Positions 4,251-28,621 of a stretch of 64,000 nt of DNA are shown in pieces. The notes beneath the pieces are model-generated. The model was given only the letters and a program-made list of their open reading frames with translations, was not told where the DNA came from and did no database searches. Numbering within the stretch: the first letter of the stretch is position 1; every line of letters starts with the position of its first letter. This DNA is from Antedon bifida (lineage: Eukaryota > Echinodermata > Crinoidea > Comatulida > Antedonidae), in the NCBI GenBank assembly GCA_963402885.1, contig OY727100.1, positions 5,629,501-5,693,500 on the forward strand, written 5' to 3'. The position numbers and the translations under genes are program-made.

Positions 4251-5972
4251 GCCCGCACCTGGCCTTTAAACCGGACTTTAGTCGTAGTTCGAGCTAAAAC
4301 TAAAAAAATGACGTCATTTTAATTCATAAACCGAACTTCAACTAAATCGCCGACTAAATCAGGCCAACCTCAACTAAATCGAGACGGATTTTGATCGATT
4401 TTTTTAGTTCTGGAGGGGGCAGGCTAATTGGTCGACTAAATGGTTTTTAAACGATGTTTATGAAAAACGTGTCATGAATAAACGTATCACTTTTGTTGTA
4501 TTTTGAATTATGAAATGTCTAGTTTTTTATTAGCTCATTACAATATTATTTTATATTTATTTTGATAATGCAAATTAGGGTTTTTTAACACCGTGTCATA
4601 AATTACTTGTTTTGTAATGTTGTCCGACTTAACTTGGTTGGTTTTTAATAACTGTGGCGAGGCAATTCAACGGCTGTGTTCAGCGATATGATTGCTTAAA
4701 TTATCGCAAAATTTAAGTAATAAGAGATCGTTCAAACCCCCTATTTGATTATGACGATTCCCAATTCGTCCAAAGGTATCGGGTTTCTAAAGAGATTGTT
4801 GTTGAATTGTTAGGAATTCTTGATTTACGTAAGGATACCAGAGGAGGTGGTGGTCACCACCGTTGTTAGAGGTTTGAGTAGCCCTACGCTATTTTGCTAC
4901 TGGAACATTTCAGTTAATGCACGGGAATGCAAAAAATATATCGCAACCTATCCTTTCCAGAATAATCGCAAACGTTTCTCGAGCTTTAGCACAGGAGAAT
5001 AGAAGGTGGATTGTGTTTCCAACGGGTGATGACAGAGATATCATTCAACAAGGGTTTAGGGCGATTGCTGGTTTCCCTAATGTAATCAGATGTATCGACT
5101 GCACGCACGTACGGATACCTTGTCCAGGTGGACAGAAAGCCGAACTATTTCAGAACAGGAAGGGATATTTTTCTATAAATGTCCAAGTTATAGGTGACCA
5201 TCGTCTAATGATTAGAGACATTGTGGCTAGATGGCAAGGGTCCGTGCACGACTCTCGTATTTTTGTAAAGAAGTTAATGGTGATGAAAATGTAGACGATG
5301 CATTAGCTGGTAGAGTCTACAGACAAGCTATAATCGACCAATATTTTACATAAGGACACCCGTCTACGTTGATCTCTATATCAAGGTACGTCATATAACA
5401 TTGTAACATAATTTCCCCCTTCCATCATGCGTGTGGGACGAAACGAAGCACACACGACAATTTAATAGCAATACATTTTGATATGAACAACGTGAAAAGT
5501 TAAATTTTGGACAGATTATACTGTAGTATCATATTCTTATGTGTAAGTACCAGTAAAGTAAAACAATTATAACGTTACCAGTAATCAAAAGAGGCAGTTT
5601 GCATGTCATGAGAGCTGGCATGCTAACTAGCCTAGGCTAGGCCTAGGCATATGGCCTACCTCAAAAGGCCTTCTCACGGTGTAACATAAAAAAGGTATCC
5701 TAGGCCTATCGTGGCGAATGTTTATATTTTGTGCTTCAGTAAATCCAGGGGCATATCCAGGGTCGTCGCCCTTCGTATGATCGTCTGATTGGTTATTTAC
5801 TAGACATATTGCACCAGCCATTGTAACCTCGACTAGAAGCTCGACTTCATTAAGTCGAACTGCAAACTTCGACTACATCGTTTTTTAATCGAATTTGAAG
5901 TAATAGCTCGAACTACGACTTTTTCAAGTCTAACTTCGAACTACAACTAAAGTCCGGTTTAAGAATACGGGC
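4251..5972 (+). mobile_element. PIF/Harbinger DNA transposon, about 1.7 kb, decayed
   Basis: The two ends are inverted copies. The left end has GCCCG, then TTAAACCGGACTTTAGT and GTAGTTCGA at 4251-4291. The right end has TCGAACTACAACT, AAGTCCGGTTTAA and CGGGC, ending at 5972. The left end has about five extra bases between GCCCG and TTAAACC. Subterminal words of the CGACTAAAT/TTCGACT type recur at both ends. The interior holds a HARBI1-like transposase relic. I could not define a clean target duplication. Confidence 0.75.
4723..5355 (+). pseudogene. HARBI1-like transposase (DDE_Tnp_4), frameshifted
   Basis: The first segment begins around 4723 with RDRSNPLFDYDD and YRVSKEIVVELLG. After a frame break near 4875 it resumes as LRYFATGTFQ and runs to 5294. 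It contains FPTGDD, GFPNVIRCIDCTHVRIP (first Asp region), NRKGYFSINVQ and DIVARWQGSVHDSRIF (second Asp). After 5294 a further frame (VDDALAGRVYRQ) can be followed to about 5355. The catalytic C-terminal third is missing. A nuclease of this family normally acts with a separate Myb-like protein, which is not present here. It is too damaged to be active. Confidence 0.8.
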
Positions 5973-5989
5973 GTTAATCCCTTGGCAAT

Positions 5990-6480
5990 TATTTAACTTT
6001 CATGTATGGAGTTTAGGTATCAGTGATGAGGTAAATTTGACTGGGTTACTAACAGTCACAGCTAAGCAGGAAAGACGCATTCTCTCAATTGCTCAAGATA
6101 TGGTGCATCTCCAAGTGATCCTACATTTTTTTGTATTTTATTTTTTATATTTTATTTGTTTTTAACTGTTCTGTATATATCTTTTAAATTAGGCCTACTG
6201 TGTATTTATGTTATAATTTTTATTTACTTTTAAACTTATAACTGGACCATTTTGGAAAGCAGTACTGCGTTACTGAAAATGCAATCCAGTCAAAAGAAAG
6301 AATAAATAAAGGAAGGGTTATGGTGTCGAAACACTCTCCATGAGCAATGGCATCACTTTACAGGTTCAGCCAAGATGATTGGCCTTCTAAATGGACTTCG
6401 TTACCAGAAGCTACTCAAGACATTTTTTCAACCATTGTTGGGACAATAATGATTTTGAAGAGGAGACAATTTCTGGAAAT
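5990..6480 (+). pseudogene. Relic of an uncharacterised invertebrate protein family
   Basis: Two in-frame islands, around 6015-6120 (AKQERRILSIAQDMVHLQ) and 6350-6420 (HHFTGSAKMIGLLNGL), resemble neighbouring blocks of a large uncharacterised protein that I recall from cnidarians and fish, with motifs of the type RRLLSVAQD and HHLTGS. They are separated by about 220 bp of AT-rich sequence ending in AATAAATAAA, which may itself be an insertion. No function is known to me. The assignment is from memory and tentative. Confidence 0.3.
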
Positions 6481-6705
6481 AGTACAACGCATAACACTAA
6501 TGGAATAATAGTTTAGCGGACTTTAACAGTCAGAATTCCAATATGTCCAGTCTCTGTGCCCAATTCACATTACAGGGGTGCAGCCAGTAGGGGGGTTACG
6601 GGGGTCTTGACCTCCCCTTTTTTCTTTGGAAAAAAATAAAAACAGGTCATCGTCCATCAAAACGAATCGTCAATTCGAAAATTTCATCAACTCCAAAAAA
6701 AAAAA

Positions 6706-7038
6706 CAAGAGTTTCCTGCTACATTAACGGAAGCTATTGTAAAATTAGCGGATCCTGATGTGTTCCCAAATGTGCGTGCACTTCTTCTAATCGCATGTGC
6801 ACTACCCGTAACGTCTGAAGCTGAGCAGAGTTTTTCGACTTTACGGAGAACGAATTCCTGTTTGCAAAATCACATGTCTTATGAGCGGCTTTCGGGATTG
6901 TGCCTCATGAACATACACTTTAACGTCATGAAAATTAATACAGAGAATGTCATTCGCGAATTCTGTCTCCAAAAGCCAAGAAGAATGTTCCAAAATGCAC
7001 ACTTATTGTTTAAAGATGCTGCATCACGCGATGTCTAG
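6706..7038 (+). pseudogene. hAT transposase C-terminal dimerisation fragment
   Basis: The reading frame carries LADPDVFPNVRALLLIACAL, PVTSEAEQSFSTLRR and ERLSGLCLMNIH. This is the C-terminal dimerisation block of hAT transposases, as in ZMYM1-like and ZNF862-like proteins. The usual Cys in TSCEAERSFS is missing. Only the last ~110 codons are present and the catalytic core is absent. A dispersed GC-rich tract near 6570-6620 precedes it. It is a dead fragment. Confidence 0.8.
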
Positions 7039-7314
7039 AGCGCCGTTAGTAACTAACGTAAAATGTATAATACTAATTTAGAAGTTATTTATTAGAATTA
7101 TGTACAAGCTATCACCTATACTATACATTCAAACAAAATAGGTATATTATATAAATATTGTATGTACAGGCAATAAATATGTTGCATGGGACAGTGTCCC
7201 ATCATGCCCCAAGTAATATTAAATTGGAATTTAGAGGATTTTAAAGACATGACTACATATTTTATATTACATTTAATTGTTTTTTTAAAATTTTTTTTAT
7301 TAACTGTGTGGTGA

Positions 7315-8235
7315 TTGTTTGGTGTTTGGATAGGCCTATCCCATACATGTAACCCAGTATGCAGTCAAGCATTAGTTAAATTAAATTTCCTCAACCATAT
7401 TATATTCATGCTGTCCATACCACCACATACCAGCCACAAGATCCAGCCATTGGACCGTACATTCTTTGGTCCCCTTAAAGTGTACTACGAACAAGAATGC
7501 CACAAATGGATGATGTCCAATGCTAGCAAACGTATCACAAAATATGAAGTTGGAGGGCTCTTTGCAGCTGCATATTTTCGTTGTGCATAAATTGGGAAGG
7601 CAGTAAAGATTTAAATGTACAGGCATTTATCCCTTCAATCCAGACATATTTACAGATATTGATTTTGCACCTGCTGAAGTGACAGAGAGGGAAAATCCCT
7701 TTGAGGAAAATGATGCAGATCATGTTCAAGCAGACCCTGCAGAACCTCAAGCAGACACCCCAGAGACTCAGGCAAATACCTCGGAGCCTCAGGCAAACAT
7801 CTCAGAGCCTCAAGCAGACACCACAGGAACTCAAGCATATCCCGCAGAACCTCAAGCAGATCCCTCAGCACAGGTTTCAGCCAAGACTGTTGCTGAACTG
7901 TCACCTTTACCAAAGGCAGACAGGCCAACAGAACAGAAAGTGGAAAAGAAGAAGTGTAATAGGAGTCCATTTAAGAAGACAGCAGAAGCGAAGGAGCAAA
8001 CCAAAATGAGCATTACACAAAAGAGACATGATAAAGAAAATAAAAGTGGACCTAGTTCATCCAAACAAAGCAAAGTTAAAGGGAAAAGTAGAGCCAATCC
8101 GACTAAAGGAAAAGGAATTGCCCTATCAAAAACTCAATCAATTAATGAAGAATACCTGTGCATTTTATGTGTAGATCGTGTAAACAGTGGTGCCATGAGG
8201 CTTGTGCACATTTAGACGGCAGTGTATTGTTCTAA
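7315..8235 (+). pseudogene. Tigger/pogo-type DDE transposase C-terminal half with PHD-like finger, broken
   Basis: The first segment (7315-7590) has LSIPPHTSHKIQPLDRTFFG, which is the third catalytic Asp region of DDE_1 transposases, then YYEQECHKWM. After a break near 7590 the protein resumes with GIYPFNPDIFTDIDF and runs into a repetitive EPQAD region and a Lys-rich tail ending at 8215. In another frame the DNA then encodes CRSCKQWCHEACAHLDG, stopping at 8233-8235. That is the C-terminal half of a PHD-like finger, as is known at the end of this transposase group. The N-terminal half of the protein is missing. At least two frameshifts make it non-functional. Confidence 0.75.
7730..7875 (+). 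repeat. 24-bp coding minisatellite (EPQADT-type octapeptide)
   Basis: Around six imperfect 24-bp units encode octapeptides such as EPQADTPE, TQANTSEP and EPQADTTG within the linker of the Tigger-type relic. The period is a multiple of three, so the frame stays open. It lies between the catalytic domain and the PHD-like finger. Confidence 0.75.
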
Positions 8236-9540
8236 AATATAATATACAGTATTAGCTTCTTTTTTTTGCATTTTGCTTTTATATATGCATTACTGTGTAA
8301 AGGCAGGCAAAAAATAGTTTGCAATGCTGACCCCCATAGGCTATTAACCGGTGACTATATTAATATCATATTAATACTTTTTGTTTGCTTTGCTTTTTTT
8401 ACAGAAGCACAGGAAATTTGCTACATAGTGACGTATGGGCATGTCACATTTTTTTGTCACATAAAATTTGAAAGTGTAGATAGAGCTTTAAATATAAAAA
8501 AACTATTCCTGCAAATCTAAAAGGATCACTCTCTTGTTTGAAATAATCGAAGGCATAAAATATGATGTTCAATTTTTAAAAAAACAGTTACAATAAAAGT
8601 ATGGTCAATATATTTTGTTTATATAAAAGGTAGACATTGTTAAAAAACTACACATTTTGTACTGTATTCAACCTACAAACATCGATGTCCGCGCGACTCT
8701 GAATGATAAAATTTACGTCATCGTCAAAATGTAACTATAAATCTTAGGATAGCGTCGCTTCTAGGGAACAGTTAAACACCAAACAGTCAATCGCAGCGAG
8801 GTATTCAGAACCGGCGCGAAATGTGAATACAGTACCTGCCTGTACAGTGTACTGTACATTATTTCCGCTGTTGCCGTGAGAGGAAGATCGAAATTAACAA
8901 TCATCTGCTATAGTATAATTCATTCATTCATTCATCAAGAATTTACACAAAAGGACATAATTTTGGTGAGTTATTGTTTCATGGTATGTTGTATTTTTTC
9001 AGTTGTTATTGTTTAATAATTAATTGGTTATTCAGGTAATAATTTCGCCAGTGTAGCATAGCAAAAGGCTATACAAAACAACCGTTTTGCTACAGATTTC
9101 TAAACTGTGTAGCAAAAAATACAATACAAAACTATGTTTCTCGACTCAAAAATCAGTTTGATTAGCAATATTGATAAACAAAATTTTAAAATGAAATTTT
9201 CCCCTGTTATTATTTAGTTTAGTGCTTTAAATTTACCACGAGGTGAATATATATATAAGCTCGTGGTAAATTTAAAGCAGATGGTGTAGTAACGTAGCTT
9301 TTATTAAGCATAGTTGATTATTTATTTCTATATACTGTATTATTTATTAAAATTGCGGGTTGTTATTATTATACCTTAACTTTTATTTAGGATGGGTTTA
9401 TATTTTAAAGAAAAACGTTACGGGTATATTATTTCTTCCATGACATTTGTCATTTTAATTTCGTTATGAGGGACTTTACTTTTTAAATTTAACCATCATA
9501 AATTATTTATCTACACACTCTTGTTAACAAATATTGACCG
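8236..9540. other. Non-coding stretch with a possible promoter and 5' exon
   Basis: No recognisable coding sequence. The part from about 8690 to 8970 is less AT-rich than its surroundings and contains an (ATTC)n run near 8921. It ends in TTTTG followed by GTGAGT, which resembles a first exon and donor site. No downstream acceptor was linked to it with confidence. The rest is AT-rich. Confidence 0.3.
9224..9278. repeat. Perfect 19-bp inverted repeat (hairpin)
   Basis: GCTTTAAATTTACCACGAG at 9224-9242 is followed after 17 bp by its exact reverse complement at 9260-9278. The loop is the AT-rich string at 9243-9259. The flanks show no sequence that ties it to one of the other elements. Confidence 0.85.
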
Positions 9541-9559
9541 TGATATGTTAGTAACATCA

Positions 9560-10300
9560 GAATCAGAAGTGAATCGGATTCTGAAGATCGATTAGCTGAT
9601 AAGTTGGCCTACTGGGTAAACAAAAATCAAGTAAAACACAATAATACGGATAAGTTGTTGAAACTGCTTCAGCAGTCAGGTCACCCTTCTTTACCACTCG
9701 CACTTTACTTCAGACACCAAGACATATTGAGTTATCAGAAATATCTGGCATGCAGTACATTAATTTTGGACTAAAAGAGCAGGCTATTAGCTGTATTTTA
9801 TAAGCATCCAAAGCATGTACAAAACAAATACAAACTATTAAATTATCTGTTAATATCAATGGAATTCTTCTGCACAAAAGTTCAAACAAGTCTCTTTGGC
9901 CTGTTTTATGTGCGATAATAAACATGGAAGTTGTTGTTGTATTTCCAGTAATACTGACCTATGGTAATTCAAAGCCAACTAGCTTGGAGTTTCTTATAAA
10001 GAAATAATACAGAATTTAAATAGTCTGATATCAAATGGGTTTACATTTAACATATCAAATATTGATAAAACTGTTCCAGTACATGTACAATGCATCGTCT
10101 GTGATGCACATGTGAAAGCAGTAAAATCTTTAATTTAATTTAATACTCCGGCTACTACGGCTGTGAGGATAGGACGAGTAACCTATCAAAACGCAGAACA
10201 GACGAGTCTTTTCGAAGTCAATCCAATGAGGGTCATCATCTTCCTTCTAAAGGAGGAAAACTCCACAAACATCACCATTTTGTGATTTGCCCATATACGT
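9560..10300 (+). pseudogene. CACTA/EnSpm-like transposase relic, copy A
   Basis: Successive frames give LADKLAYWVNKNQ, GHPSLP, TLLQTPRHIELSEISG, YINFGLKEQA, SVNINGILLHKSSNKSLWPV, YGNSKP, VHVQCIVCDAHVKA and RTDESFRSQSNEGHH, in the order expected for the N-terminal half of this animal family (related to Transposase_21). Stops and at least three frameshifts interrupt it. It is a separate and more decayed copy than the one that starts at 10498. The superfamily label is from memory; the match between this copy and the next is seen directly. Confidence 0.6.
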
Positions 10301-10497
10301 GGCTCAAGTAGTTCTTATTCAGAAATTCTTTTTTTTCAAATGATTATGTGCCTTTTTTATTGTTTTATTTATTGATTTTTGAATGTGAATTTTCAAAGGA
10401 CTATTAACAAAACAAAATACTGTAATGTAAATGTCTCAAAAAAAAAATGTTATCCATATAATATTAGTTACTTATATTTATGAATTCTATTAGAGTT

Positions 10498-10564
10498 ATG
10501 GCATATTTAAGACGATGGAGAAGAATTCGTTCAGTTGTTGAAGCCTTGATTAGGGAGGGCAGTA
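10498..10564 (+). pseudogene. CACTA/EnSpm-like transposase copy B, N-terminal 22 codons
   Basis: An ATG at 10498 opens a short basic reading frame (MAYLRRWRRIRSVVEALI). It ends at the TA where the 11-kb element is inserted. With the insert and one TA removed, the frame continues in phase into the sequence that starts at 21655. This segment is therefore the displaced N-terminus of the ORF on the other side. Confidence 0.7.
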
Positions 10565-11714
10565 CCCTTTGAAAAAAAAACTACCGTCGTTTACCGTAGA
10601 TCACTGTAAAACAACACTTTTTACTGGTTATTACCGTCGTAAACTATGGTAAACACCGTTGCAGACTATGGTAAACAACGTTGCTATAAATGTCATAAAA
10701 TACATCACCAAGGTAATCCCTTGTCACCACTAATTATAACCAGGGTCATATCAATAAACATGCCGGTGATTTATGGAAAGGCTATTACTACTAGGCCCCT
10801 CCCTCTACTAGGCCTAGGCTAGATAGGCTTGCTTACCTACTACAGTGTATATTACATTACGTTTCTTAAATTGGTATTTTAACCAATTCTAAAAACGCTT
10901 TTATTTCAAACTGTATAATAAGCCTATACAGTACTAGCCTAGGCCTAGTACCAAAAACTGTTTGTGCACACATATCCAATTACACGGCGGCCATCCAAAC
11001 CATCATCATCTCTGCAGCTCATCGCGCTCTTTCATACACGTTACCGCCGGCGGCAAAACCACCATATCCATCAGATGTGCGCCCTCTACATTCACTTTAT
11101 TAAAGCATGCAAACATCTCTTTGATTGAGTATTCTATCTAACATTTTAAACAACGATGCCGCTTTCAATCACGCGAGTTTGTTGGACTCAAATAGGCCTA
11201 CAACTTGCTATTATTTGTTAATATACAAATTAACGGCGAATCAACGCGCATTCATATTTTTTACGTATTTACGATAGTAAATAGCGATACCGTAATGTTA
11301 ATTTAACGACAACGGTATTGAATATCGTTATGTTCAGTTGTTTTTTTTAGGCCTAAATTGATATAGTAATTTACTTTTTGATACGCGTATGTTAAAAATT
11401 GAGCATTAGGCACACACTAATCTGGTTGTTGCCATTACAATTTTTTTCTATATGTTGTCATTTAAAACGTTTAAATGACGACACCACTGTCCATTAATCA
11501 CTCTATGTTTTCAATGAATTGTCGGCGAATGTTTACCTGCCTCGTTTCAAATCCACAACAACGTTGAGCAACGTTGTGGTATATAAAATTCAATATTCCC
11601 TTAGAATGACATGTGTTTAAAAATATAGACATTTATAATTTCCTATGAACCAAAACATGAAATTTCCTCTAATTGTTTTATAATATCACTCTATGTTTCC
11701 AATGAATTGTCGGC

Positions 11715-12010
11715 GACAACTAATTACCGATATAAATATGTTACACATAATAAAAAGGAGAGTATTTGGTATAACATGCATGTATGTATGTGCTACCCAT
11801 TATAAATATTGGGTATCACAACTAATTACCGATATAAATATGTTACACATTAATAAAAAGGATAGTATTTTGGTATGAAATGCACATAAAGTGTGCCACC
11901 CATTATAAATATTGGGTAGCACAACTAATTACCGATATAAATATGTTACACATTAACAAAAAGGATAGTATTTTGGTATGAAATGCACATTAAGTCTGTG
12001 CTACCCATTA
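11715..12010 (+). repeat. 106-bp tandem repeat, about 2.8 copies
   Basis: The word ACTAATTACCGATATAAATA recurs near 11719, 11820 and 11926. Units also share TATGTTACACAT and a small inverted repeat TACCCATTATAAATATTGGGTA (written as TACCCA and TGGGTA arms). The array sits inside the 11-kb transposon, between the first and second CAACGTTG palindromes. Confidence 0.75.
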
Positions 12011-12869
12011 CTGTATTAGGTAGCCAACGTTGCCAAAGGGATTGTTAGCGAAAATGTTTTCACTGTCCCGTTTACACAACAACGTTGAGCAACGTTGTGT
12101 AATATAGCCTATTGTAAAATGGCTATTCCTGCCTTAAAATTGGCACTGGTATAAAATATAAACATTAATAATTATTTAAGTATCAGAAAACTGAATTGCT
12201 TCGAACTGTGTTGTAATGATATCGGTAGGTCTTCTGTTACTAAGGAATGTTAACGAATGTTTCCCTGTCCCGTTTACACAACAACGTTGAGCAACGTTGT
12301 GTTATTATAACATTCTATCCTTGCCTTAAAATTGGCACTGATATAAAAATATAAACATTAGTAATTACTTAAATATCAGAAAATGAAATTGTCTCTAATT
12401 GTGTTGTAATATCGGTAGGTCCAGCGTTGCCACATGGATTATTAGCGAATGTTTTCCCTGTCCCGTTTACACAACAACGTTGAGCAACGTTGTGTTATAT
12501 TATAAATGCCCTATGGGCCATAAAATTGGCACGGGTATAAAATATAAACATTTATAAGTAATTTTGAACCAGAAAATGAAATGCTTCTAATTGTGTTGTA
12601 ATATCGGTAGGTCCAGCGTTGCCGAAGGGATTATTAGCGAATGTTTTCCCTGTCCCGTTTACACAACAACGTTGAGCAACGTTGTGTTATATTATAAAAT
12701 GCCCTATGGGCCATAAAAGTGGCACGGGTATAAAATATAAACATTTATAAGTAATTTTGAACCGGAAAATGAAATGCCTCTAATTGTGTTGTAATATCGG
12801 TAGGTCCAGCGTTGCCACATGGATTATTAGCGAATGTTTTCCCTGTCCCGTTTACACAACAACGTTGAG

Positions 12870-14464
12870 CAACGTTGTGCTATATTATAAAATGCCCTAT
12901 GGGTCATAAAAGTGGAACGGGTATAAAATATAAACATTTATAAGTAATTTTGAACCAGAAAATGAAATGCCTCTAATTGTGTTGTAACATCAGTAGGTCC
13001 AGCGTTGCCACAGGGATTTAGCGAATGAGTTTCCCTGTCCCGTTTACACAACAACGTTGAGCAACGTTGTGATATATTATAAAATTCCCTATTCATAAAA
13101 GTGGCACGGGTATAAAATATAAACATTTATAAGTAAGTTTGAACCAGAAAATGAGATGCCTCTAATTTTGTTGTAATATCGGTAGGTCCAGCGTTGCCGA
13201 AGGGATTATTAGCGAATGTTTTCCCTGTCCCGTTTACACAACAACGTTGAGCAACGTTGTGTTATATTATAAAATGCCCCATGGGCCATAAAAGTGGCAC
13301 GGGTATAAAATATAAACATTTATAAGTAATTTTGAACCAGAAAATGAAATGCCTCTAATTGTGTTGTAATATCGGTAGGTCCAGCGTTGCCGAAGGGATT
13401 ATTAGCGAATGTTTTCCCTGTCCCGTTTACACAACAACGTTGAGCAACGTTGTGTTATATTATAAATGCCCTATGGGCCATAAAATTGGCACGGGTATAA
13501 AATATAAACATTTATAAGTAATTTTGAACCAGAAAATGAAATGCCTCTAATTGTGTTGTAATATCGGTAGGTCCAGCGTTGCCGATGGGATTATTAGCGA
13601 ATGTTTTCCCTGTCCCGTTTACATAACAACGTTGAGCAACGTTGTGTTATATTATAAAAGTGGCACGGGTATAAAATATAAACATTTATAAGTAATTTTG
13701 AACCAGAAAATGAAATGCCTCTAATTGTGTTGTAATATCGGTAGGTCCAGCGTTGCCGAAGGGATTATTAGCGAATGTTTTCCCTGTCCCGTTTACACAA
13801 CAACGTTGAGCAACGTTGTGTTATATTATAAAATGCCCTATGGGCCATAAAAGTGACACGGGTATAAAATATAAACATTTATAAGTAATTTTGAACCAGA
13901 AAATGAAATGCCTCTAATTGTGTTGTAATATCGGTAGGTCCAGCGTTGCCACATGGATTATTAGCGAATGTTTTCCCTGTACCGTTTACACAACAACGTT
14001 GAGCAACTTTGTGTTATATTATAAAATACCCTATGGGTCATAAAAGTGGAACGGGTATAAAATATAAACATTTATAAGTAATTTTGAACCAGAAAATGAA
14101 ATGCCTCTAATTGTGTTGTAATATCGGTAGGTCCAGCGTTGCCACAGGGATTTAGCGAATGAGTTTCCCTGTCCCGTTTACACAACAACGTTGAGCAACG
14201 TTGTGATATATTATAAAATTCCCTATTCATAAAAGTGGCACGGGTATAAAATATAAACATTTATAAGTAAGTTTGAACCAGAAAATGAGATGCCTCTAAT
14301 TTTGTTGTAATATCGGTAGGTCCAGCGTTGCCGAAGGGATTATTAGCGAATGTTTTCCCTGTCCCGTTTACACAACAACGTTGAGCAACGTTGTGTTATA
14401 TTATAAAATGCCCCATGGGCCATAAAAGTGGCACGGGTATAAAATATAAACATTTATAACTAAT
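12870..14464 (+). repeat. Higher-order repeat of about 1,134 bp within the 193-bp array
   Basis: A distinctive unit with GATTTAGCGAATGAGTTTCC and a shortened CCCTATTCATAAAAG segment appears at about 12960-13135 and again at about 14094-14270, with almost the same neighbours. The offset is 1,134 bp, which is six basic units. This indicates a block duplication rather than unit-by-unit growth. Confidence 0.75.
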
Positions 14465-15719
14465 TTTGAACCAGAAAATGAAATGCCTCTAATTGTGTTG
14501 TAATATCGGTAGGTCCAGCGTTGCCACATGGATTATTAGCGAATGTTTTCCCTGTCCCGTTTATACAACAACGTTGAGCAACGTTGTGTTATATAATACA
14601 AAATGCCACATCCCTGCTTTAAAATTGGCACTGATATAAAAATATAAACATTAATAACTACTAAAGTATCAGAACATAAAATTGTCTCGAATTGTGTTGT
14701 AATATAGGTATCGAACGTTGCCAAAGGAATTATTAGCGAATGTTTTCCCTGTCCCGTTTCAAATACACACAGCAACGTTGAGCAACATTATACAATTCTA
14801 TCCTTGCCTTAAAATTGGCACTGATACAAAATATTAACATTAATAATTACTAATTACTTAAATATCAGAAAATGAAATTGTCTCTAATTGTGTTGTAATA
14901 TATCGGTAGGTCGCCTTTGTTGCCACTAATTGTTTTCTCTGTCCCGTTTCAAATACACAACAAGGTTGAGCAACATTATAAAATGCCTATCTCTGCCTTA
15001 ATTGGCACTGATATAAAAAAGATAAACATTAATACAGTAATTACTTAATTATCAGAAAATGAAATTGCCTCTAGTTGTGTTGAAATGATATCGGTAGGTC
15101 GCCTATGTTGCCAAGGGATTAGCGAATGTTTTGCCTGTCTCGTTTCAAATCCACAACAACGTTGAGCAACGTTGTGTTATATAAGATTTAACTATAATTC
15201 CCTTATATAGACTGAAATGTGTCTAAGAATATAGACATTTATAATTATCTATGAACTAAAACATGGCATTTGTAAAATCACTCTATGTTGACAATGAATT
15301 GTTGGCGAATGTTTACCCTGCCTTTCAAATCCACAACAACGTTGAGCAACGTTGTGTTATATAATATTTAAGTATCACTCCCTTATATAGACTAACATGT
15401 GTCTAAGAATATAGACATTTATAATTAGGCCTACCTATGAACCAAAAAAAAATAAAATTTCGTTTCATTGTGTTATAATATAACTCTATATTTTCAATGA
15501 ATTGTCGGCGAATGTTTACCTGCCTCGTTTCAAATCCACAACAACGTTGTGTTATATAAAACTTAACTATAATTCCATTAGAATGACATGTGTCTAAACA
15601 TATAGACATTTATAATTAACTATGAACCAAAAAATGAAATTTCACTTAATTGTGTTATAATATCACTCTATGTTTCCAATGAATTGTCGGCGAATGTTAT
15701 AATTAATTGTGAACCAAAA

Positions 15720-17060
15720 AATAAATGTCCTCTACTTTGTGTTTAGGAAGCCTATAACTCGTTCAGGAATTGACAGCGAATGTTGTCATATTCCGTTTCA
15801 AAGTTGTGTTATATATAGGCCTACAAGTCATATTTAATATTACCATAAACTTATATGGGTATAAAAATATAAACATTTTAAATATAATTGTCTATAAAAG
15901 GGACATCGAATGTATATAATTTATTTTTAAACCAGAAAATAAATTTCCTCTAATTTGTGTTTAGGTAGCCTATACGTTGTTTAGGAATTGACAGCGAATG
16001 TTGCCATATTCCGTTTCAACGTTGAGCAACGTTGTGTTATATATAGGCCTACAAGTCATATTTAATATTACCATAAACTGATATGGGTATAAAAATATAA
16101 ACATTTTAAATATAATTGTCTATAAAAGGGACATCGAATGTATATAATTTATTTTTAAACCAGAAAATAAATTTCCTCTAATTTGTGTTTAGGTAGCCTA
16201 TACGTTGTTTAGGAATTGACAGCGAATGTTTTCATATTCCGTTTCAACGTTGAGCAACGTTGTGTTATATATAGGCCTACAAGTCATATTTAATATTACC
16301 ATAAACTGATATGGGTATAAAAATATAAACATTTTAAATATAATTGTCTATAAAAGGGACATCGAATGTATATAATTTATTTTTAAACCAGAAAATAAAT
16401 TTCCTCTAATTTGTGTTTAGGTAGCCTATACGTTGTTTAGGAATTGACAGCGAATTTTGTCATATTCCGTTTCAACGTTGAGCAACGTTGTGTTATATAT
16501 AGGCCTACAAGTCATATTTAATATTACCATAAACTGATATGGGTATAAAAATATAAACATTTTAAATATAATTGTCTATAAAAGGGACATCGAATGTATA
16601 TAATTTATTTTGAAACCAGAAAATAAATTTCCTCTAATTTGTGTTTAGGTAGCCTATACGTTGTTCAGGAATTGACAGCGAATGTTGTCATATTCCGTTT
16701 CAACGTTGAGCAACGTTGTTTTATAATATATAGGCCTACAAGTCATATTTAATATTACCATAAACTGATATGGGCATAAAAATATAAACATTTTAAATAT
16801 AATTGTCTATAAAAGGGACATCGAATGTATATAATTTATTTTTAAACCAGAAAATAAATTTCCTCTAATTTGTGTTTAGGTAGCATATACGTTGTTCAGG
16901 AATTGACAGCGAATGTTGTCATATTCCATTTCAACGTTGAGCAAAGTTGTGTTATATATAGGCCTACAAGTCATATTTAATATTACCATAAACTGATATG
17001 GGTATAAAAATATAAACATTTTAAAAACAATTGTCTATAAAAGGGACATCGAATGTATAT
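15720..17060 (+). repeat. About 228-bp satellite array, about six units
   Basis: Units start near 15798, 16018, 16245, 16473, 16701 and 16932 (position of the CAACGTTG motif or its decayed form). Spacing is 220-231 bp. They share GGAATTGACAGCGAATGTTG, TATATATAGGCCTACAAGTC and AAAAGGGACATCGAATGTAT. Apart from the palindrome, the GCGAATGTT word and ATATAAACATT, the sequence is unlike the 193-bp unit next to it. Confidence 0.9.
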
Positions 17061-20000
17061 AATATCTATATCTATAGGTAATAACATGTTAGCGACCCAT
17101 CAACATTTTATACGACTGCATTTATTGAGAATATAAAAATTTACAGTGAATGAAAATTAAAGTTTTAAAACTCTTTTAGTTAATTATAAACTTTTAAATA
17201 TTGATTGTAACTAAATATACAGTATACAAAGTAACAAGGATTCATCATTAACTGCTATGTTTAATCCATGTGTTACCTTGACATCTGAAACCCAACAATG
17301 TTAAAACAATAAATTTAGCATGTTCCATTATAAACTTAGGGAAATTATCAAACACCATTGACGAAATCAGAGCTTCTAAACTGTAAGCTTCTGATTGGTG
17401 TATTACCTGATAGTGACCGGCCTATATACAAGATGATGTTGTCATTTAATTAGCAAATGTTACGATCAACCTGAAGGCCTAAGTCATAAACACATTTGGG
17501 TAATTGCGATGACTGATGACCAGCCTAGGTCAGGTCAATCGATGTGTCGTTAAGTCTAAAAAGTTCAACAGTTAAACCTATAATGAAAAATATATGAATA
17601 TTGTTTGCGTTCAATCATGGAGAATTTCTCCATGGTTTAATGCAAACCCATGCAAACGTCAGGGTAACTTCCGGTACGGTAATACATTTTCTAATAAATA
17701 TAATCAATTAATGCAAATTAAGTATTAGCCTACCAATTAACTATAAAAAAATTGACAAAAAATGAAGCTGCTTTAATAAATATTGAACACAAAGTTAATT
17801 TGCAGAACTGTTACTTCAAAGTTCGGAACGTCCGATAGGGTAGGCCTACTACACGGAAATACAAAAAAAACTATGATGAACAAAAATATTCTCTTCTCAG
17901 CCCTCTACTTCTATAACGTTATGGACGTCAGTAGTGGGTACTGTATAATAAAACTAATTTAGTTTTATACCTTCCCGTTTACAGAACATACAATTAAATG
18001 CGATCAACATTTTAATATAGTGGCAGAAAAAACATTTACTATAAAAATCCAAAGGGTAAATAAAATATCCGCGAACAAAGTACAATGTACCCGGCCACGC
18101 ATGAAATGGCCAAGTGGCGTATTCGTAAATAAAAAAAAATCGTTTGCGTAAACTTTTTTTTTGTATGAGCGGGCGAAATGTTATCAATAGTATACGACAG
18201 GCTTATTCTAGTCATTGGAGTTGTAAACACAACGAAAGTGACAGTGGGCAGAATTTTAAAAGTAACTATGGTATGGTATGGTCCCTGGATGGATGTGCAG
18301 TAGCGTGACCCAGATCGACGCTTGTGAATTGGGCGAACTTCTAAATATAGTTCTAAAATTCGTACAAAAGGGCACCGCCAGACAAACGCGCTGTACGCTA
18401 CTGGTCTACTCTACTATACAAGCTTTTAGTCACTGTAACTTGATACATCTCATCAGCATTTTAATATTGAAAACGAGGCTAGTATTATTACTCTATATTC
18501 CACTATCTTACTGTAGTTTTATCAATTCTGTTTACAGTCATCGAATAATTCTATTCAGCTGAATTAACCTAATCTATGCTTTCCTGTTTATTGATGTCCC
18601 ATAATTTGGGTTCCTATTGTTCCTTATTTTTTTTTTTGCTGGTAGACACTGTGTATCAAGAGTGTGTATATATTAACATAGTACTGTATATTCCTTTGTT
18701 CATATACTAATTGATATGCTAATTTAGTGTCCAAGGTTATGTATGTGGGTTGCATTTAATTGGTATTAGTATTACAGTTTATTTTTAACTTGGTTTTATC
18801 GAACTTCCGTTATTATATTTTTATACTCATATATTTTTATATTGTTTATTTTTATTTTAACCATATTTAATGGGGGTGATCCATCCAGCATTTGTTGATC
18901 ATTTGGGACCCTCAGAACAGATACAATATACAACAATAACAGTAAAGTAAAAGAAAAACCAACAAAATAAAATTAATTACATAAGACTAAACATCCTTGA
19001 CAAATAGAAAATAACAGATATGTTAAATTAAGCAAAATATAAAATATATATATTGTATGTTTAATTGTGTTAAGAATGCACCATTATTATGTGTGCCGCT
19101 GTTCAAAAAGCGTTTTCCGAATAAATTATTATTATTATTATTATGCCAAGCTAGCCAAGGCCGAGAGATTTAATATACAGTACAGTATTAATGTTATTTA
19201 ATACATGTAGGAGGCCATGATTTCAGACCGTGATATTTACTGTATATAGGTACTGTATCATGTATAGGATTTGTACAATAAATAATCCTACAATAACATT
19301 GATTTTTGATAAAAAGCCGTTTTATATCAAAAATTAAATTGGATGATTTTGAACTATGCCGTAGAAAAATGAAAAGGCAAATTACACTTAGAAAAAATGG
19401 CAATGCTGATGACTGGATCTCAAAGGAGATACAAATAAAACTAGACATGAACTCGACGAGTTAGTTATCCGCACGATAAACGCCATGTGCACGTCATACG
19501 TTGGAGTTTGGCACACAGAGAAAGATTATGGCATTATGACCTGATCTGAAGAATATAATATGTTGTTACAAGTATATTCTGTATACATATTATTACATAC
19601 AGTGCAGAATAGGTAAAATTACGGGACCCGTCATTTATTCCTATTTTTAACATGGCGACGGTATCAAAATGAAACACAAAGATAGGAATTTTGGAAGGAA
19701 ATTATCTCAGCAACAACATATTAACGTGTAGAAGAAATTTGAATACGTAAAATATAGATGCACGCTCTTTTAAATGTGATGAACTATAACGCAAGAGATG
19801 AAAATATTACTTTTTTTATCATCTAAGAAAAGAGCCAAAATATGAAAAAGGGTGACATCCTTTAAACAGGGCCCTGCTTTAAAGTTGTTAAACATGATGT
19901 ATAGATATTTCTTGTGAGCAGCAGGCACAAGTTGAAGTGAGGTATAATCATCATCATAATGAAGATAATCACCTTAGTTGCCTAGCAACTGGCAAAAACA

Positions 20001-20298
20001 CATTCCTGACTTCCCAACAGTGGTCACTTTGACCCATTTGGAATAAGCTGCATTCTTTTCTACTGACCTATAAACTATATTATTATTATACATTGTAAAA
20101 ACAGATACATTCAAATGAATAAAACCAAACAGAAAGATATAAATGGAAAAAATGTATTCATAAAAAATCATAGGGTTAAATTTTATATGAACACTCAACA
20201 CTTATTCAGACATTACTTTCTATAGCTTAAGTTTTACTTAAACTTGTTCTGAGTGTAATTTTACAAACGAACATCTCTTCGTTCCCAATAGTAAATAC
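17061..20298. other. Unique interior of the 11-kb element, no gene recognised
   Basis: No convincing coding sequence. A short perfect palindrome (CATGGAGAA, T, TTCTCCATG) lies near 17617. The part from about 18860 to 19143 looks like the 3' tail of a LINE, ending in AATAAATTATTATTATTATT. A truncated copy of the dispersed repeat seen at 60 kb occupies about 19440-19860. Confidence 0.5.
19440..19860 (+). repeat. Truncated copy of the 60-kb dispersed repeat
   Basis: It shares CTAGACATGAA, GACGAGTTAGTTATCCGCAC, GTGCACGTCATACGTTGGA, GGCATTATGAC, ATTACGGGACCCG and CATATTAACGTGTAGAAGAA with 60026-60470, in the same order. It ends before the TGACGTCA-containing part. The copy lies inside the 11-kb transposon. 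Confidence 0.85.
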
Positions 20299-21135
20299 TG
20301 TTTTGAGAACTTCGTTCATATAGCTAAATTCGGAAATTTCACCCATCTAAACCATGTGATACGGCAGTAAATATCACCGTTGTTTTTTTAGTTAGGCCTA
20401 ACACTCAATAACACCGTAGTTTACCGTCGTTTACCCTCGTGAACAAAAACAGCTAACGGGTCCGAATAAAAAATACCGGACACGCTATTTTCACTTTACA
20501 ATCATTTAAACCACCGTTTTATATACATACATTATGTAAATATATTTATATCGTTTTGAGAACTTTGTTCATAGATAAATTCGGAAATTTCACCCATCTA
20601 AACCATGTGATACGGCAGTAAATATCACCGTTGTTTTTATAGTTAGGCCTAACATTCAATAATACCGTAGTTTACCGTCGTTTACCCTCGTGAACAAGAA
20701 CAGCTAACGGGTCCGAATAAAAAATACTGGACACGCTATTTTCACTTTACAATCATTTAAACCACCGTTTTATATACATACATTATGTAAATATATTTAC
20801 ATCGTTTTGAGAACTTCGTTCATAGATAAATTCGGAAATTTCACCCATCTAAACCATTGTGATACGGCAGTAAATATCACCGTTGTTTTTATAGTTAGGC
20901 CTAACATTCAATAACACCGTAGTTTACCGTCGTTTACCCTCGTGAACAAGAACAGCTAACGGGTCCGAATAAAAAATACCGGACACGCTATTTTCACTTT
21001 ACAATTATTTATACCACTGTTTTATATGCATTATGTAAATATATTTACATCGTTTTGAGAACTTCGTTTATAGATAAATTCGGAAATTTCACCCATCTAA
21101 ACCATGTGATATGGCAGTAAATATCACCGAATAAA
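20299..21135 (+). repeat. 250-bp tandem repeat, about 3.3 copies, carrying the TIR core
   Basis: Units begin near 20300, 20552, 20802 and 21051 with GTTTTGAGAACTT. Each complete unit contains TTTACCGTCGTTTACC (near 20419, 20670 and 20922), which is identical to the inner part of the element's right terminal inverted repeat. Other shared words are TTCACCCATCTAAACCAT and GAACAGCTAACGGGTCCG. Confidence 0.9.
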
Positions 21136-21654
21136 AAATCTTATACACTAGTGTACATAATTAAAATTTTTTGTGTAGGCCTATCTCCATCATTTGTATT
21201 TTTACCTATCGTATTATATCAGCGAATGATTAAATAAACTGCACTCCTGATTTGGCCAAGTTCAAATAGGCTTACCTTTTGCGTTATTCTATTTTTTTAT
21301 ATATTTTTATTATACCATCAACTGGGCTATAGAGGGCTTTGTTGTCTTCAAGAAAACTATCTGATAAAAACTAGGAGGAAGAGGACACGTGTCACGTCAC
21401 TAAATACACTTGTCTTCAACCCTCAATTAAAACCGGACTTTGCCATTGGTCTATATATTTGAAGGGTGGAGCTATTCAGTAAGTTGGTGATTGTTAAACA
21501 AGCCAACTAATAGATTGCCTTCAGCAACCAATTAAAAGTCCGTCATGAGACCCATTAAAACATGTAAGTAGGTGATTAACCTTGGTGATTAGTACGACGT
21601 TGTTTACCGTTGTTCAACACTGGTAAACGACGGTAAATTTTTTTTCAAAGGGTA

Positions 21655-22760
21655 GTGGCGATGAATCTAACATTAATTCAGCTCAGGATGTGGCAGATAC
21701 GACACCAGAGTTGACCTCCGAATCAGACTTTAATTATGACTCCACATCTTCAAATTCTTCCGAAAATAATTTTGAAGATAACAAAAAAGAAAAAAACATT
21801 GCTATTCAACTTCGGGCATGGGCCACAACACATGCATGTAATAGACTTGCCTTGAATGACTTGCTTAATATTCTCCGCAATCATGGTCATACTAGTCTCC
21901 CAAAAGATGCACATACTTTATTACAAACTCCAAATACTGTTCCTAGTGTTGACAAGTGTGGTGGCAAATATATTTACTTTGGTAATCAATCATCTCATAT
22001 TAAATTAAAGATCAACATCGACGGTTTACCTCTTTTTAAGTGTTCAGCTCTGGCCAATATTGTGCAGCTTTCATAATTACCCACCATTTATAGTTGCATT
22101 GTTTTCAGGAACTGCCAAGCCAGACCCACTTGCCGATAATCTGTTTGATTTCCTTGAAGAATTGAAGCACCCACAGACATACAACCTACCAGATTGAAAT
22201 TGAATCATTTATTTGTAATGCCCCTGCATGAGCTTTTTTAAAATGCATAAAAGGTCACAATGCATACCATTCATGTGAGAGGTGTCAAATCAAGGGTTCC
22301 TGGGAAGGAAGAGTTGTCTTTAATTCAAACTCCAACTTTCCTCCTTGTACAAGGACACAATTTGATATGGTTGGTTACAAAAACACCTCTCATCGACATC
22401 TGTATAAACTGCATATCACCCTAGACTACATGCACCTGGTGTGTCTTGGTGTGGTACGCAGAGTTCAAAGATGACAGTACTTATGTTTGTGATTGCATTT
22501 CCGTACGACATACAGTGGCCTTTTATGACAGCCCATGTGATTCTAAACAGGTTTTATCAATAGTATTCATTGAGGAGGAGGCAATGAGAGTTCACACTCA
22601 CCGTAGACTTGTGGAAGAGAAAGACCTACAAAGAAAGGCAGTACAATTACCTTACAACAATGGATTTGTTCTCTTTCCATTGTTACATGGAGTTGAATGG
22701 AATATCAAAAAAGTTGATTATTCCATGACATACTGTAACATGTACAAAATCTTTGAATAG
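21655..22760 (+). pseudogene. CACTA/EnSpm-like transposase copy B, main part, broken
   Basis: The frame from 21655 (in phase with 10498-10564) runs to 22076. It shows an acidic Ser-rich linker, LRAWATTHACNRLALNDLL, LPKDAHTLLQTP, GGKYIYFGNQ and LKINIDGLPLFK. After frame breaks it continues as FIVALFSGTAKP (about 22090), then KCIKGHNAYHSCERCQIKGS (about 22240) and, further on, a less certain block at 22446-22760. The motif order (TLLQTP, NIDGLPLFK, GTAKP, CxxCxxKG) matches copy A and the animal family known to me. The catalytic C-terminal part is not recognised, so the copy is dead. Confidence 0.6.
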
Positions 22761-24164: not shown

Positions 24165-26981
24165 GAAAATCGTTTCTCTTGTATACATTTTAATGCTAGA
24201 AGCTTACAAAAAAACTTTGAATCTATTTCAAGTTGCATTCAATCTCTTAATTTTGACTTTGATGTCATTTCGGTAACTGAAACTTGGATGGACTATGTTA
24301 GTCCACTTATTCATTTACCATTTTATTCACTAGTTTTCCAACCCTGTTCATATAAATGCGGAGGTATCAATATTTTTATCAATAATAAGTGTCATTATAA
24401 AATTAGAGATGACTTAACTCCTTTAACCTATTTTTGTAAATCTCAGTTTATTGAAGTTAAAACCGGAAAAGAAGATATAATAATCGGAACTATATATAGA
24501 CCTCATGATATTTCTATTCCTTTCTTTACACAGAACTTTGAACTCCTTATTAAAAACATAACGAAAGAAAATAAAAAAATATTTCTCCTTGGTGATTTTA
24601 ACATTGACTTACTCAAATTTGAATCTGATAACAATATTAATGATTTTGTTCATTGTCTTTTCAATAATTCTCTCATTTCGCCTATTCATAGACCGACACG
24701 CATCACCGAACATCCCGCTACCCTAATTGACAACATTTTCACTAATGATCTTGAATCGTCTGTTAGTCATGGTATCATTATTAATGATGCTACAGATCAT
24801 CTTCCTGTTTTTAACATCAGTTCAAATAAACCGAGTAAGCGAGTAATCAATACCAATCTTAAATTTAGAAATACTAGTGAACACAATATCCTTAATTTTC
24901 GTAATGATTTATCAAATTTTCTATGGAATGATGTCGTGAGTACGCAAGACACAAATCTGGCATATAACACATTTATTAATAATTTTACCACCTTATATAA
25001 CAAACACTTTCCTTTAATTGAACCATCCAAAGCTAAAGGTAAACTTAAACCATGGATGACCGATGGACTTTTGACCTCGATTTTGTACAAACAGAAACTT
25101 TATTCTAAAAGTCTACGCCATCCAACACTTTCTAATATATCCAAATATAAGCGTTATCGAAATAAATTAAACAACCTTTTAAAAACTGCTAAATTTGATT
25201 ACGTTTGTGAAACTTTTACTAAGCTTAAGTTCAATATCAAGGCCACCTGGCGTGTCATCAATTCTCTTCTTAAGTCAAATAAAAATGCACCTGCCGATAT
25301 TGAACTTTTAGCTGATGGAAAATTAATAAAAGAACCTTTAACAAATATTGGACCCAACCTTGCTGGAAAAATAAACAATGACTCTGATAAAACTTTTCAT
25401 CACTTCTTACATCCCCCTATTCCTAACTCAATTTTTCTTTCACCTGTAACCGAACAAGAAGTGCACAAAATCACAAATTCATTTAAAAGCAACAAGGCTT
25501 CTGGCATCGATGACATTTGTGCTAAAGTTATCAAAAAATCCATTGACACTATTCTCTCTCCTCTCACTTACATTTTTAATTTATCTCTTACATCTGGTGT
25601 TTTTCCCAACTCCCTAAAAATTGGTAAAGTTATTCCAATTTTCAAGAAAGGTAGCAAGTCCGATCCAAATAACTATCGTCCAATCTCCATCCTTCCCTTT
25701 TTTTCAAAGATTCTTGAAAAGATTATTTATAACCGCGTCTATGATTTTATAAGCAAGCACAATATTCTTTATAATAAACAATTCGGATTTAGGAAAAACT
25801 ATTCTACGTCTTTTGCGTTAATTGATTTAACCAACAACATTATTGATGCAATTCAAAACAATTCTTTTCCCTCTGGCTTGTTTATTGACCTTTCGAAAGC
25901 TTTTGATACCATTGACCATCATATTCTGATTACTAAACTTTCAAATTATGGTATCCGTGGTGTTGCTCTTAAACTTTTAAACAATTACTTATCAAATAGA
26001 TTTCAATGTACTTCTGTTAACAATCATACCACTGATCTTAAGCCCATTACCTGTGGTGTTCCCCAAGGGTCCTTGCTTGGCCCTCTTTTATTTCTAATTT
26101 ACATCAATGATTTACCAAACGCCTCAGATATCCTTACTTTTTATCTTTATGCAGACGACACAACTTTATTTTATAAAAGTGTTAACTTTGAATCAATTTT
26201 TCATACTTTTAACCAAGAATTAATTAATATCAATGATTATTTTAATGTGAATAAACTTTCAATAAACCTAAGTAAATGCAACTTTATGTTGTTTGGAATA
26301 CGTCATCAAAAACTGACCGACAAGTCTCATAAAATTCTGATTGGTGATCAAGTAATTCCCCATGTTAAGCAAACCAAATTTTTAGGTGTTTTAATTGACC
26401 AAGAGCTAAATTTTAAAAATCATATAAAAGAAATCGAATTAAAAATTTCTAAAAACATTGGCATACTTTATCGTCTTTCTTCCTTTTTACCGTCTCAAAT
26501 TTTACGCAATATTTACTGTTCCTTTATTCTGCCTTTTATTAGTTACTGTAACATTGTATAAGCCAATAATTACTCCTCAAATCTTAACAAAATACACGTC
26601 CTTCAAAAGAAAGCTGTTCGTCTTATCTCGGGCAACTCACGTCTTGCCCATTCTAATATCCTTTTTTATAACCTTAAACTCTTAACTGTGCACGATATCA
26701 ATAAACTCCAACAATGCATTTTCGTTTATGAACATATTAATTTCAAACTGCCTTCTAACTTTTCCTGTAATTTTTTAACTAACTCTGAAATCCATTCGTA
26801 TAACACAAGAGCATCACAGGACCTTCATCTTCCTCAACCTAAACTAACTAAAATAAAACATAACATTCACTATAGTGGTTCTAAACTATTCAATAATCTA
26901 CCTCCCGAAATTTCATCATCGTCCTCTAGCAAAATGTTCTCTTTTAAACTTAAAGAATATCTTATTTCAAATTATAACTAA
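24165..26981 (+). pseudogene. LINE endonuclease-reverse transcriptase, one in-frame stop
   Basis: The frame starts upstream of the ATG at 24288 (FNARSLQKNFESI, VISVTETW) and runs open to a TAA at 26559-26561. It then continues in the same frame to 26981. The endonuclease domain shows LLGDFNIDL, TLIDNIFTN and ATDHLPVF. The reverse transcriptase shows SNKASGIDDI, NYRPISILP, FIDLSKAFDTIDHH, GVPQGSLLGPLL and YADD at 26148-26159. The C-terminal KAVRLISGNS region follows the stop. A frameshift near 24150 separates it from its N-terminus. With a single nonsense codon this is a young copy, but probably inactive. Confidence 0.85.
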
Positions 26982-27052
26982 TTGTTTTCTCTATTTTGTA
27001 ATATTTTTTTTTAACTTTAGAAACTTTTTCGAAATTGCTTCCTTTACTGTTG

Positions 27053-27116
27053 GTGTGTGTGTGTGTGTGTCTGTTGATCTATGTGTGTGTGTCTGTTGAT
27101 CTATATGTGTATGTGT
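27053..27116 (+). repeat. GT-rich microsatellite with CTGTTGATCTAT spacer
   Basis: (GT)n tracts alternate with TCTGTTGATCTAT in two units. It lies in the 3' UTR of the LINE ending at 27375. Confidence 0.85.
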
Positions 27117-27375
27117 AGTTATATGTTTACATTTATATATATAAGTATATAATTTTCTTACATGGCTTCCCAACATACAAGTTTTCAATTGGGTTTTTTT
27201 GCCTCTTTCATTTTTTATATAACTGAATCATCTTTTTTTTATACATTATGATTTACTGTATTATATCTCTAAAAAAAAAAAAATATTTATATATAAAATA
27301 TCAGAAATTTTAATGTTTTACTCAAATTTGAATATGAAAGAAATAAATGTTTATTTGATTGATTGATTGATTGAT

Positions 27376-28621
27376 GTGTGTGTATAGCCTTGCAGAAAAT
27401 AAAGCCACTTTCCCTACAATTGTTGACGTTTTGTAAATATAATGCATATAATATATTACTTTAAAAAAATTAAACCAGGTCATTCCTTGTCTTAAATGTA
27501 CGTTTTATGGTTAATTACGATAAAAAAGAAAAACAATGCACTGCTTAAGTAGGTCACGCCGAATGTCCTCTCGTGTGGACGGTCTTAGGCCTAGCCAAGC
27601 TCAGTTTTGTAGGCCTAGCTGGTAAACATCAGTCACATACGAACATCGTACGCTAGCTATAGGCCTAGTCTGGGATTTTCTATTTGCTGTATTGTCTTTC
27701 TTTAGCAGGAAACGTTAATACAAATTAGGGAAGACTCTGTATTTTTGTTTAAAAGTTACGAACTTTCATTTATTTTTATTTCGAGATTGATCGTTTTGCA
27801 CGATGTATTCTGGTATTTATAGCGGGCCGCTAAAATTATTAGAATTGACTTATTTTTCACATTTTTTCTGTTTAAAGATGAAAAACATTGTTTATTATTT
27901 AAACAATTTTTTTTTCTCCAGAAACATGGCTAGTTAAGTTAATCAAAATCAAGATATCTTCTGGTACTTTAAATTATTGCTAAACATCACAGTCTCTTAA
28001 GATTACAGCATCATTCTTTTTGTTATTTTGTCGACCAACACAAATAAATAAATTGCATAATATACTATATAGTATTTTAAAATAATTAAGAAATACTGTA
28101 TGACAGACCAAATATAATCCCAGGCCATTAAAGATTGAATTGTTCCCCAAAAACAGGTAAATAATTTTTTCCGGTCAAATTTTTGGTCAAAGTGAATACC
28201 ATTATTATATGCAACATTAAAAAGACATACTGGTACCGTATTCTACAAAAGAACTTGAATAAATTATTTTTTCAAGGGATAATCCAATACAATATCTTTA
28301 TCGTAATCTGAATAACCCACGCATAAATGTTCGCCTAATTTCGTACCCAGACCCATATACGATAAAACATCATCATAAATCATGTGTGTATAACTTTTTA
28401 ATATTAATCATTTTATTTTATTTCATTCTCATTAGAAAGTAAGGATGAGTGTGAGGAGTACGATGATACAGATGAAAGTAGTCATGAAACCCCAACTTCA
28501 ACAGGCCGGGGTAAACGGACAACCAAAAAACACCACACGCTTGAGCTTGAAACGTGAAGAATTTTTCATTGAAATCCTGAGCAGAATTATAAAAATAGGT
28601 TACGAAAACGAAATACGAATC
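27376..28621. other. AT-rich spacer with one exon-like segment
   Basis: No family similarity was seen. At 28436 an AG follows a long pyrimidine-rich tract (TTTATTTCATTCTCATTAG). An open frame of about 39 codons follows, rich in Asp, Glu, Ser and then Lys (ECEEYDDTDESSHETP, GRGKRTTKKHH), ending at about 28557. It could be an isolated exon. It precedes the L1/Tx1 ORF1 start. Confidence 0.3.

Follow-up and report, generated by a model that had tools for sequence, protein, structure and literature searches.

A giant satellite-carrying DNA transposon in the feather star Antedon bifida and its probable place in the animal CACTA/EnSpm group

The element, its insertion site and its copies

The window analysed here is a stretch of 64,000 nucleotides from the feather star Antedon bifida (assembly GCA_963402885.1, contig OY727100.1, positions 5,629,501 to 5,693,500, forward strand). 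Between positions 10565 and 21652 it contains an element of 11,088 bp, free of N, which is bounded by inverted repeats and interrupts an open reading frame (ORF). The features of the locus are as follows; the twin box is described in the next section.

10468..10564, plus strand: interrupted host frame, 5' part
10563..10564: left target-site copy (TA)
10565..10595, plus strand: left terminal inverted repeat, starts CCCTTTG
10633..10684, plus strand: 22-bp short subterminal repeats with GGTAAAC and CAACGTTG
11559..16949, plus strand: span of 24 twin-box sites
11716..12010, plus strand: 103-bp tandem array, 2.9 copies
12024..14912, plus strand: 193-bp tandem array, 15 copies, units with twin box CAACGTTGAGCAACGTTG
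14741..15113, plus strand: 187-bp variant array, 2 copies, twin box degenerate
15691..17063, plus strand: 228-bp tandem array, 6.1 copies, twin box retained
17064..20299: middle region without long arrays
20300..21129, plus strand: 251-bp tandem array, 3.3 copies, with the 14-bp terminal motif TACCGTCGTTTACC in the unit
21622..21652, minus strand: right terminal inverted repeat
21653..21654: right target-site copy (TA)
21655..22076, plus strand: interrupted host frame, 3' part

The two termini are identical at 29 of 31 positions, start with CCC (CCCTTTGAAAA at both ends) and rank first among the 25 inverted pairs listed for the region out of 246 (36 nt with flanks, 92%). When the element and one TA are taken out, a frame of 172 amino acids (aa) spans the junction, and a second one does so over 24 aa. 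The inverted termini, the TA on either side and the in-phase continuation of the frame, all reported in a preliminary description of this DNA, are borne out. Together with the sequence up to ~22465, the 3' part of the host frame weakly matches Transposase_21-type transposases (best E ~0.001, with nine homologues only and the frame broken); a Pfam search of the frame returned no transposase model above the cut-off. Because of this weak match, the element probably sits in a decayed transposase relic of its own kind. A second relic with weak likeness to a Transposase_21-type transposase lies upstream of the insertion (window 9816-9917).

A search of the 315.6-Mb assembly (27 contigs) with the terminus pattern returned 19 matches, 8 of them forward and 11 reverse, against none in the control. 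Fourteen of them pair into seven complete copies of 11,088, 23,763, 3,689, 25,843, 13,867, 39,847 and 32,017 bp, lengths that count insertions. Another marks the right terminus of a 16.6-kb copy that lacks ~30 bp on the left, and four are unpaired (3-kb loci were taken around these four, and partners were not looked for there). The seven complete copies and the 16.6-kb copy were examined; the 39.8-, 32.0- and 25.8-kb copies are called C8, C10 and C1, respectively, after the contigs that carry them. All seven complete copies are flanked by a perfect 2-bp target duplication, TA in three, AA in two, TT in one and AT in one. The earlier proposal of a TA duplication therefore holds for its length, and the target is not TA-specific.

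Over 550 bp of the left and 520 bp of the right end (28 pairs), the seven copies other than C8 differ from each other by 0-3.1%, and C8 differs from them by 3.1-6.2%. With ends this similar, individuals may still differ in insertions. A paralogous empty site was found for C10: a divergent related repeat within the window, at ~61001 on the minus strand, to which the joined flanks of C10 align with one AT and no gap, the second AT introducing a gap and a lower score (249 versus 243). The 300 bp of left flank match there at 84.7% and right-flank bases 168-300 at 85.7%; the first 167 right-flank bases fall below the search threshold. The unit is a real, multi-copy and recently mobile DNA transposon. 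The preliminary description, which took the 11,088-bp block for a transposon, named further same-ended copies with variable arrays as support for this, and such copies exist.

Some copies have been altered internally. In C1 a stretch of 8.3 kb is present as a direct duplication in which a 1,069-aa ORF occurs twice, possibly an assembly duplicate (L033 and L034); L033 also contains 200 N. The 23.8-kb copy contains two blocks framed by inverted repeats. Retroelement-like frames, identified by eye, stand on both flanks of the 3.7-kb copy (L031 ends) and the 25.8-kb copy (L032 start, L034 end), which suggests that these two copies are probably inserted in retroelements.

Satellite arrays and coding sequences

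Four kinds of array (103 bp, 193 bp with its 187-bp variant, 228 bp and 251 bp) together account for 50-52% of the window element. The preliminary description was right as to the four kinds and overstated their extent, since 'largely' has to be read as about half. The plan is collinear across copies: left end, 103-, 193- and 228-bp arrays, middle region, 251-bp array, right end. Every one of the eight fetched copies has array calls, although some lack one kind or another; Tandem Repeats Finder reports the 103-bp array in five of the eight, the 193-bp array in seven, the 228-bp array in six and the 251-bp array (238-251) in seven, and called neither the 228- nor the 251-bp array in the smallest copy (3.7 kb). 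The 193-bp array varies from ~5 to 32 units over the seven copies with a call; in C8, two blocks on the left consist of divergent 180/276-bp units. With nested blocks counted, the share of arrays with a period of at least 90 bp is 50, 48, 33, 16, 33, 15, 20 and 35% across the eight copies.

The twin box CAACGTTGAGCAACGTTG consists of two palindromic CAACGTTG 8-mers, 10 bp apart (CAACGTTG-AG-CAACGTTG). The window element holds 24 such sites (18-mer, at most 3 mismatches), 20 of them exact, and no exact site occurs in the remaining 52.9 kb of the window; the smallest copy has five exact twin boxes. When the consensus units of the 193-bp, 228-bp and C8 180-bp arrays are compared without anchoring, their longest exact common block is CAACGTTGAGCAACGTTGTGTTATAT or an extension of it, 26-31 bp in length, that is, the twin box together with TGTTATAT. 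Our conclusion on the common block rests on this unanchored comparison. A core-anchored alignment of 214 units gave eight groups (166, 36, 7 and five singles), the two largest of which agree at 18 of 18 core positions versus 96 of 133 outside; the anchoring itself favours the core and the alignment is biased to that extent. On the right, the 251-bp unit holds TACCGTCGTTTACC, 14 bp of the terminus, and its C8 counterpart holds 10 bp. Repeated subterminal motifs are thus present at both ends: the left has its twin-box arrays, the right array its 14-mer from the terminus. Apart from 50 bp that the 251-bp unit has in common with the corresponding C8 unit, the 103- and 251-bp units share no more than 7-10 bp with other units.

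C10 carries a second, nested element with CCC ends (17,005 bp, element 4378-21382, L041:4880 to L043:1884). Its ends are CCCTAGTAAAAA/CCCGGGTAAAAA, its target duplication is TA, and it encodes a multi-exon transposase of its own; the corresponding site is unoccupied and intact in the sister copies C1 and C7d. This nested element contains 29 palindromes of the form TCCC(1-3 bases)GGGA, nine in the first 220 bp and 20 in the last 670 bp; in 200 mononucleotide shuffles the mean was 0.2 and the maximum 2, for a motif chosen after the arrays had been seen. Since all of them lie in these outer segments, end-confined palindromes recur here with a different motif.

C8 contains eight pieces of a multi-exon transposase (element 24,241-31,831). 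The string of these pieces has nine homologues at E<=1e-3, nine of nine with a precomputed PF02992 (Transposase_21) match and four of nine also with PF06869. The motifs HIDG, GCGRC, DYLH, NVHNVCEH and FSFE align with P0001, P0002, P0003 and P0006, and P0005 ends before the last two. Among the five homologues aligned (of the nine), the D, C2C and D motifs therefore align in all five, and H-H and E in four. Four piece pairs match between the C8 and C10 transposases (~30-54% identity), the other pairs giving no match. A Pfam scan of 10 ORFs from the C8 and C10 pieces found no transposase model above the cut-off and one DUF1258 match below it. The window, 23.8-, 3.7-, 25.8-, 13.9- and 16.6-kb copies show no match to the C8 or C10 transposase pieces at E<=1e-3, and the middle region of the window element (17064..20299) has no coding match to the pieces of these two coding copies. 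C10 was considered as the autonomous partner and rejected, because its 17-kb coding block is the separate nested element whose empty site is seen in sister copies.

About 1.8 kb before its transposase and in the opposite orientation, C8 carries, in addition, an uninterrupted cyclin-D ORF without introns (L039:2203-2937, minus strand; Cyclin_N 2.6e-34, cyclin D1 3.7e-51). It is 48-62% identical to three exons of the host cyclin D gene (contig C1, from 14409158 on), which itself matches the cyclin-D2-like protein of Antedon mediterranea at 98-100% in three stretches (residues 1-193 of 295). A long intact frame at such divergence suggests past selection. Three other intronless copies, two on contig C16 and one at position 21074644 of contig C8, are all disrupted. 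The C16 pair lies in tandem (L060:1176-3078) and shares ~80-82% DNA identity with the C8 copy. Its substitutions relative to the C8 frame amount to ~7-8% and are not in excess at third positions. The 10 kb analysed there, with 1.3 kb to one side of the pair and ~7 kb to the other, contain neither transposase nor other element sequence. With disrupted relatives at these sites, and the C16 pair without element sequence nearby, cyclin D is not supported as conserved cargo, and we treat the ORF as a passenger. We consider it improbable that a transposon-borne cyclin D drives host germ cells towards S phase, favouring movement, with the arrays serving as kilobase-long landing platforms; if this were true, satellite DNA would be a working part of the transposon rather than baggage.

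Elsewhere in the window we noted a tandem array of 16 units of 81 bp that encloses a 170-aa open frame (40059-41429), a DDE_1/Tc5-type transposase ORF (33817-35106) and, on the minus strand, an ISXO2-like (PF12762) transposase ORF (47616-48551).

Class assignment and alternatives

The window block is best explained, in our view with good confidence, as a non-autonomous copy of a giant cut-and-paste family belonging to the 'TRC' type of the animal CACTA/EnSpm group. The TRC placement rests on the CCC-starting ends, the 2-bp duplication and the probably native Transposase_21-type transposase of a same-ended copy. For animal TRC elements, CCC termini, 2-bp duplications (seven of 14 SmTRC1 copies) and Transposase_21 are described in the accessible part of the source (PMC1636069); the wider CMCT group has mostly CA..TG termini and 2-5-bp duplications, according to the corresponding part of a paper on fungal transposons (PMC12730594).

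A coding copy with the same ends, such as the 39.8-kb C8, would supply transposase in trans to the gene-less window copy and may so move it. Most left-hand units contain a pair of palindromic CAACGTTG boxes at a spacing of one helical turn, and in the right-hand unit part of the terminus is repeated; the transposase or an accessory protein would bind these boxes and terminus repeats and so pair the element ends. Array length would drift by unequal exchange while the boxes are retained. The specific proposal that the satellite arrays are expanded subterminal binding sites for transposition proteins, drawn by analogy with the binding of TNPA to subterminal repeats in En/Spm, has in our estimate an even chance of being correct.

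Several points weigh against this interpretation. A direct Pfam search with the C8 string gave no transposase model above the cut-off, so that PF02992 comes from the homologues only; the C8 gene model was built by eye; and, of the eight copies, those whose ends are within 3% of the window copy's all lack a transposase of their own. The 103- and 251-bp units lack the twin box; of the common block the 187-bp variant retains 14 bp, and the longest stretch that it shares with the 193-bp unit (19 bp) lies outside the block. The arrays also share ancestry, so that retention of the box may in part be due to recent exchange between units.

The strongest competitor, to which we give somewhat less than an even chance, is a TRC/CACTA transposon with passive satellites that arose by neutral tandem expansion in a tolerant region and have no role in transposition. 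The wide variation in array copy number is consistent with this, as are the box-less units and the degenerate variant just mentioned; plant CACTA satellites near one element end likewise have no known role in the accessible part of the report (PMC8978399). However, three otherwise different array families have the same 26-31-bp block as their longest common stretch, the 3.7-kb copy has kept its five exact boxes, and a second family, the 17,005-bp element, has palindromes confined to its ends.

A further, rather unlikely alternative is that the C8 transposase belongs to a nested element and does not move the family, the actual partner having been missed or lost. The C10 transposase did turn out to be nested, and C8 is both 39.8 kb long and the most divergent copy. 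Against this, a self-comparison of C8 outside the arrays yielded five inverted pairs, none of which, besides its own ends, frames the gene; the pair 28805-28883 / 35629-35699 has one arm inside it, and short imperfect ends would escape such a comparison.

Tc1/mariner elements are not known to duplicate anything but TA. Although the window copy is flanked by TA, a Tc1/mariner-type or other TA-targeting non-autonomous element is to all intents ruled out by the TT, AA or AT duplications in four of the seven complete copies, and also conflicts with the CCC-starting termini and the Transposase_21-type gene of the same-ended coding copy. Helitrons and Helentrons are not known to have terminal inverted repeats or a target duplication and are ruled out by the presence of both, and Mavericks/Polintons, with a 6-bp target duplication, by the 2-bp duplications. 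The 200 N and the direct duplication in C1 show that the assembly is imperfect, yet an assembly artefact or a chance pairing of inverted repeats has a negligible probability given seven complete copies with matching duplications, phase-exact flanks, the empty site of another copy and a window copy without N.

Relation to known elements

The preliminary description proposed a new type of giant satellite-carrying transposon. The giant satellite carrier stands, being multi-copy with arrays in every fetched copy; the novelty of type does not, since the ends, the 2-bp duplication and the probably native transposase of the same-ended copy point to the known animal CACTA (TRC) group and satellites inside plant CACTA elements have been published, in Chenopodium (PMC8978399). 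What is unusual is the size, the number of arrays and the shared box; the kind of element is already known. No satellite-carrying CACTA element in an echinoderm was recognised in the literature searched, which consisted mostly of papers outside subscription.

As far as the accessible parts of the cited papers go, SmTRC1 and other animal TRC elements resemble the feather-star family in their CCC-starting termini, 2-bp duplication, Transposase_21 transposase (in the feather star probably that of C8) and truncated non-autonomous derivatives; SmTRC1 has in addition a region of tandem repeats close to its 3' end. TRC elements measure 4.7-9.2 kb, however, versus 3.7-39.8 kb here (some with insertions), and unlike them the feather-star copies consist to 15-50% of arrays of period at least 90 bp, with palindromic boxes in most left-hand units (PMC1636069). 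The plant CACTA element 'Jozin' also combines Transposase_21 with large size (16.5 kb) and a 5.5-kb array of a 171-bp unit near one end; it differs in its plant host, its single kind of array and its CACTA 3-bp duplication, and no shared short box is described in that part of the source (PMC8978399). In En/Spm the accessory protein TNPA recognises subterminal repeats, and the soybean Tgmt* (20.5 kb) has asymmetric subterminal repeats; both have a 3-bp duplication, and the part of the source available describes no kilobase-long satellites in them (PMC2613891). Oyster Helentrons are likewise mobile elements that disperse satellite-like arrays (PMC7492417), but belong to another transposon class, one not known to have terminal inverted repeats or target duplications.

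Animal CACTA elements thus reach, in this genome, up to ~4 times the length of the TRC elements described in the accessible part of the source, insertions included (PMC1636069). The family links the origin of dispersed satellite arrays with a molecular function that is open to test: should the transposase or an accessory protein use the twin box as its site, tandem satellites can arise and persist as parts of transposons.

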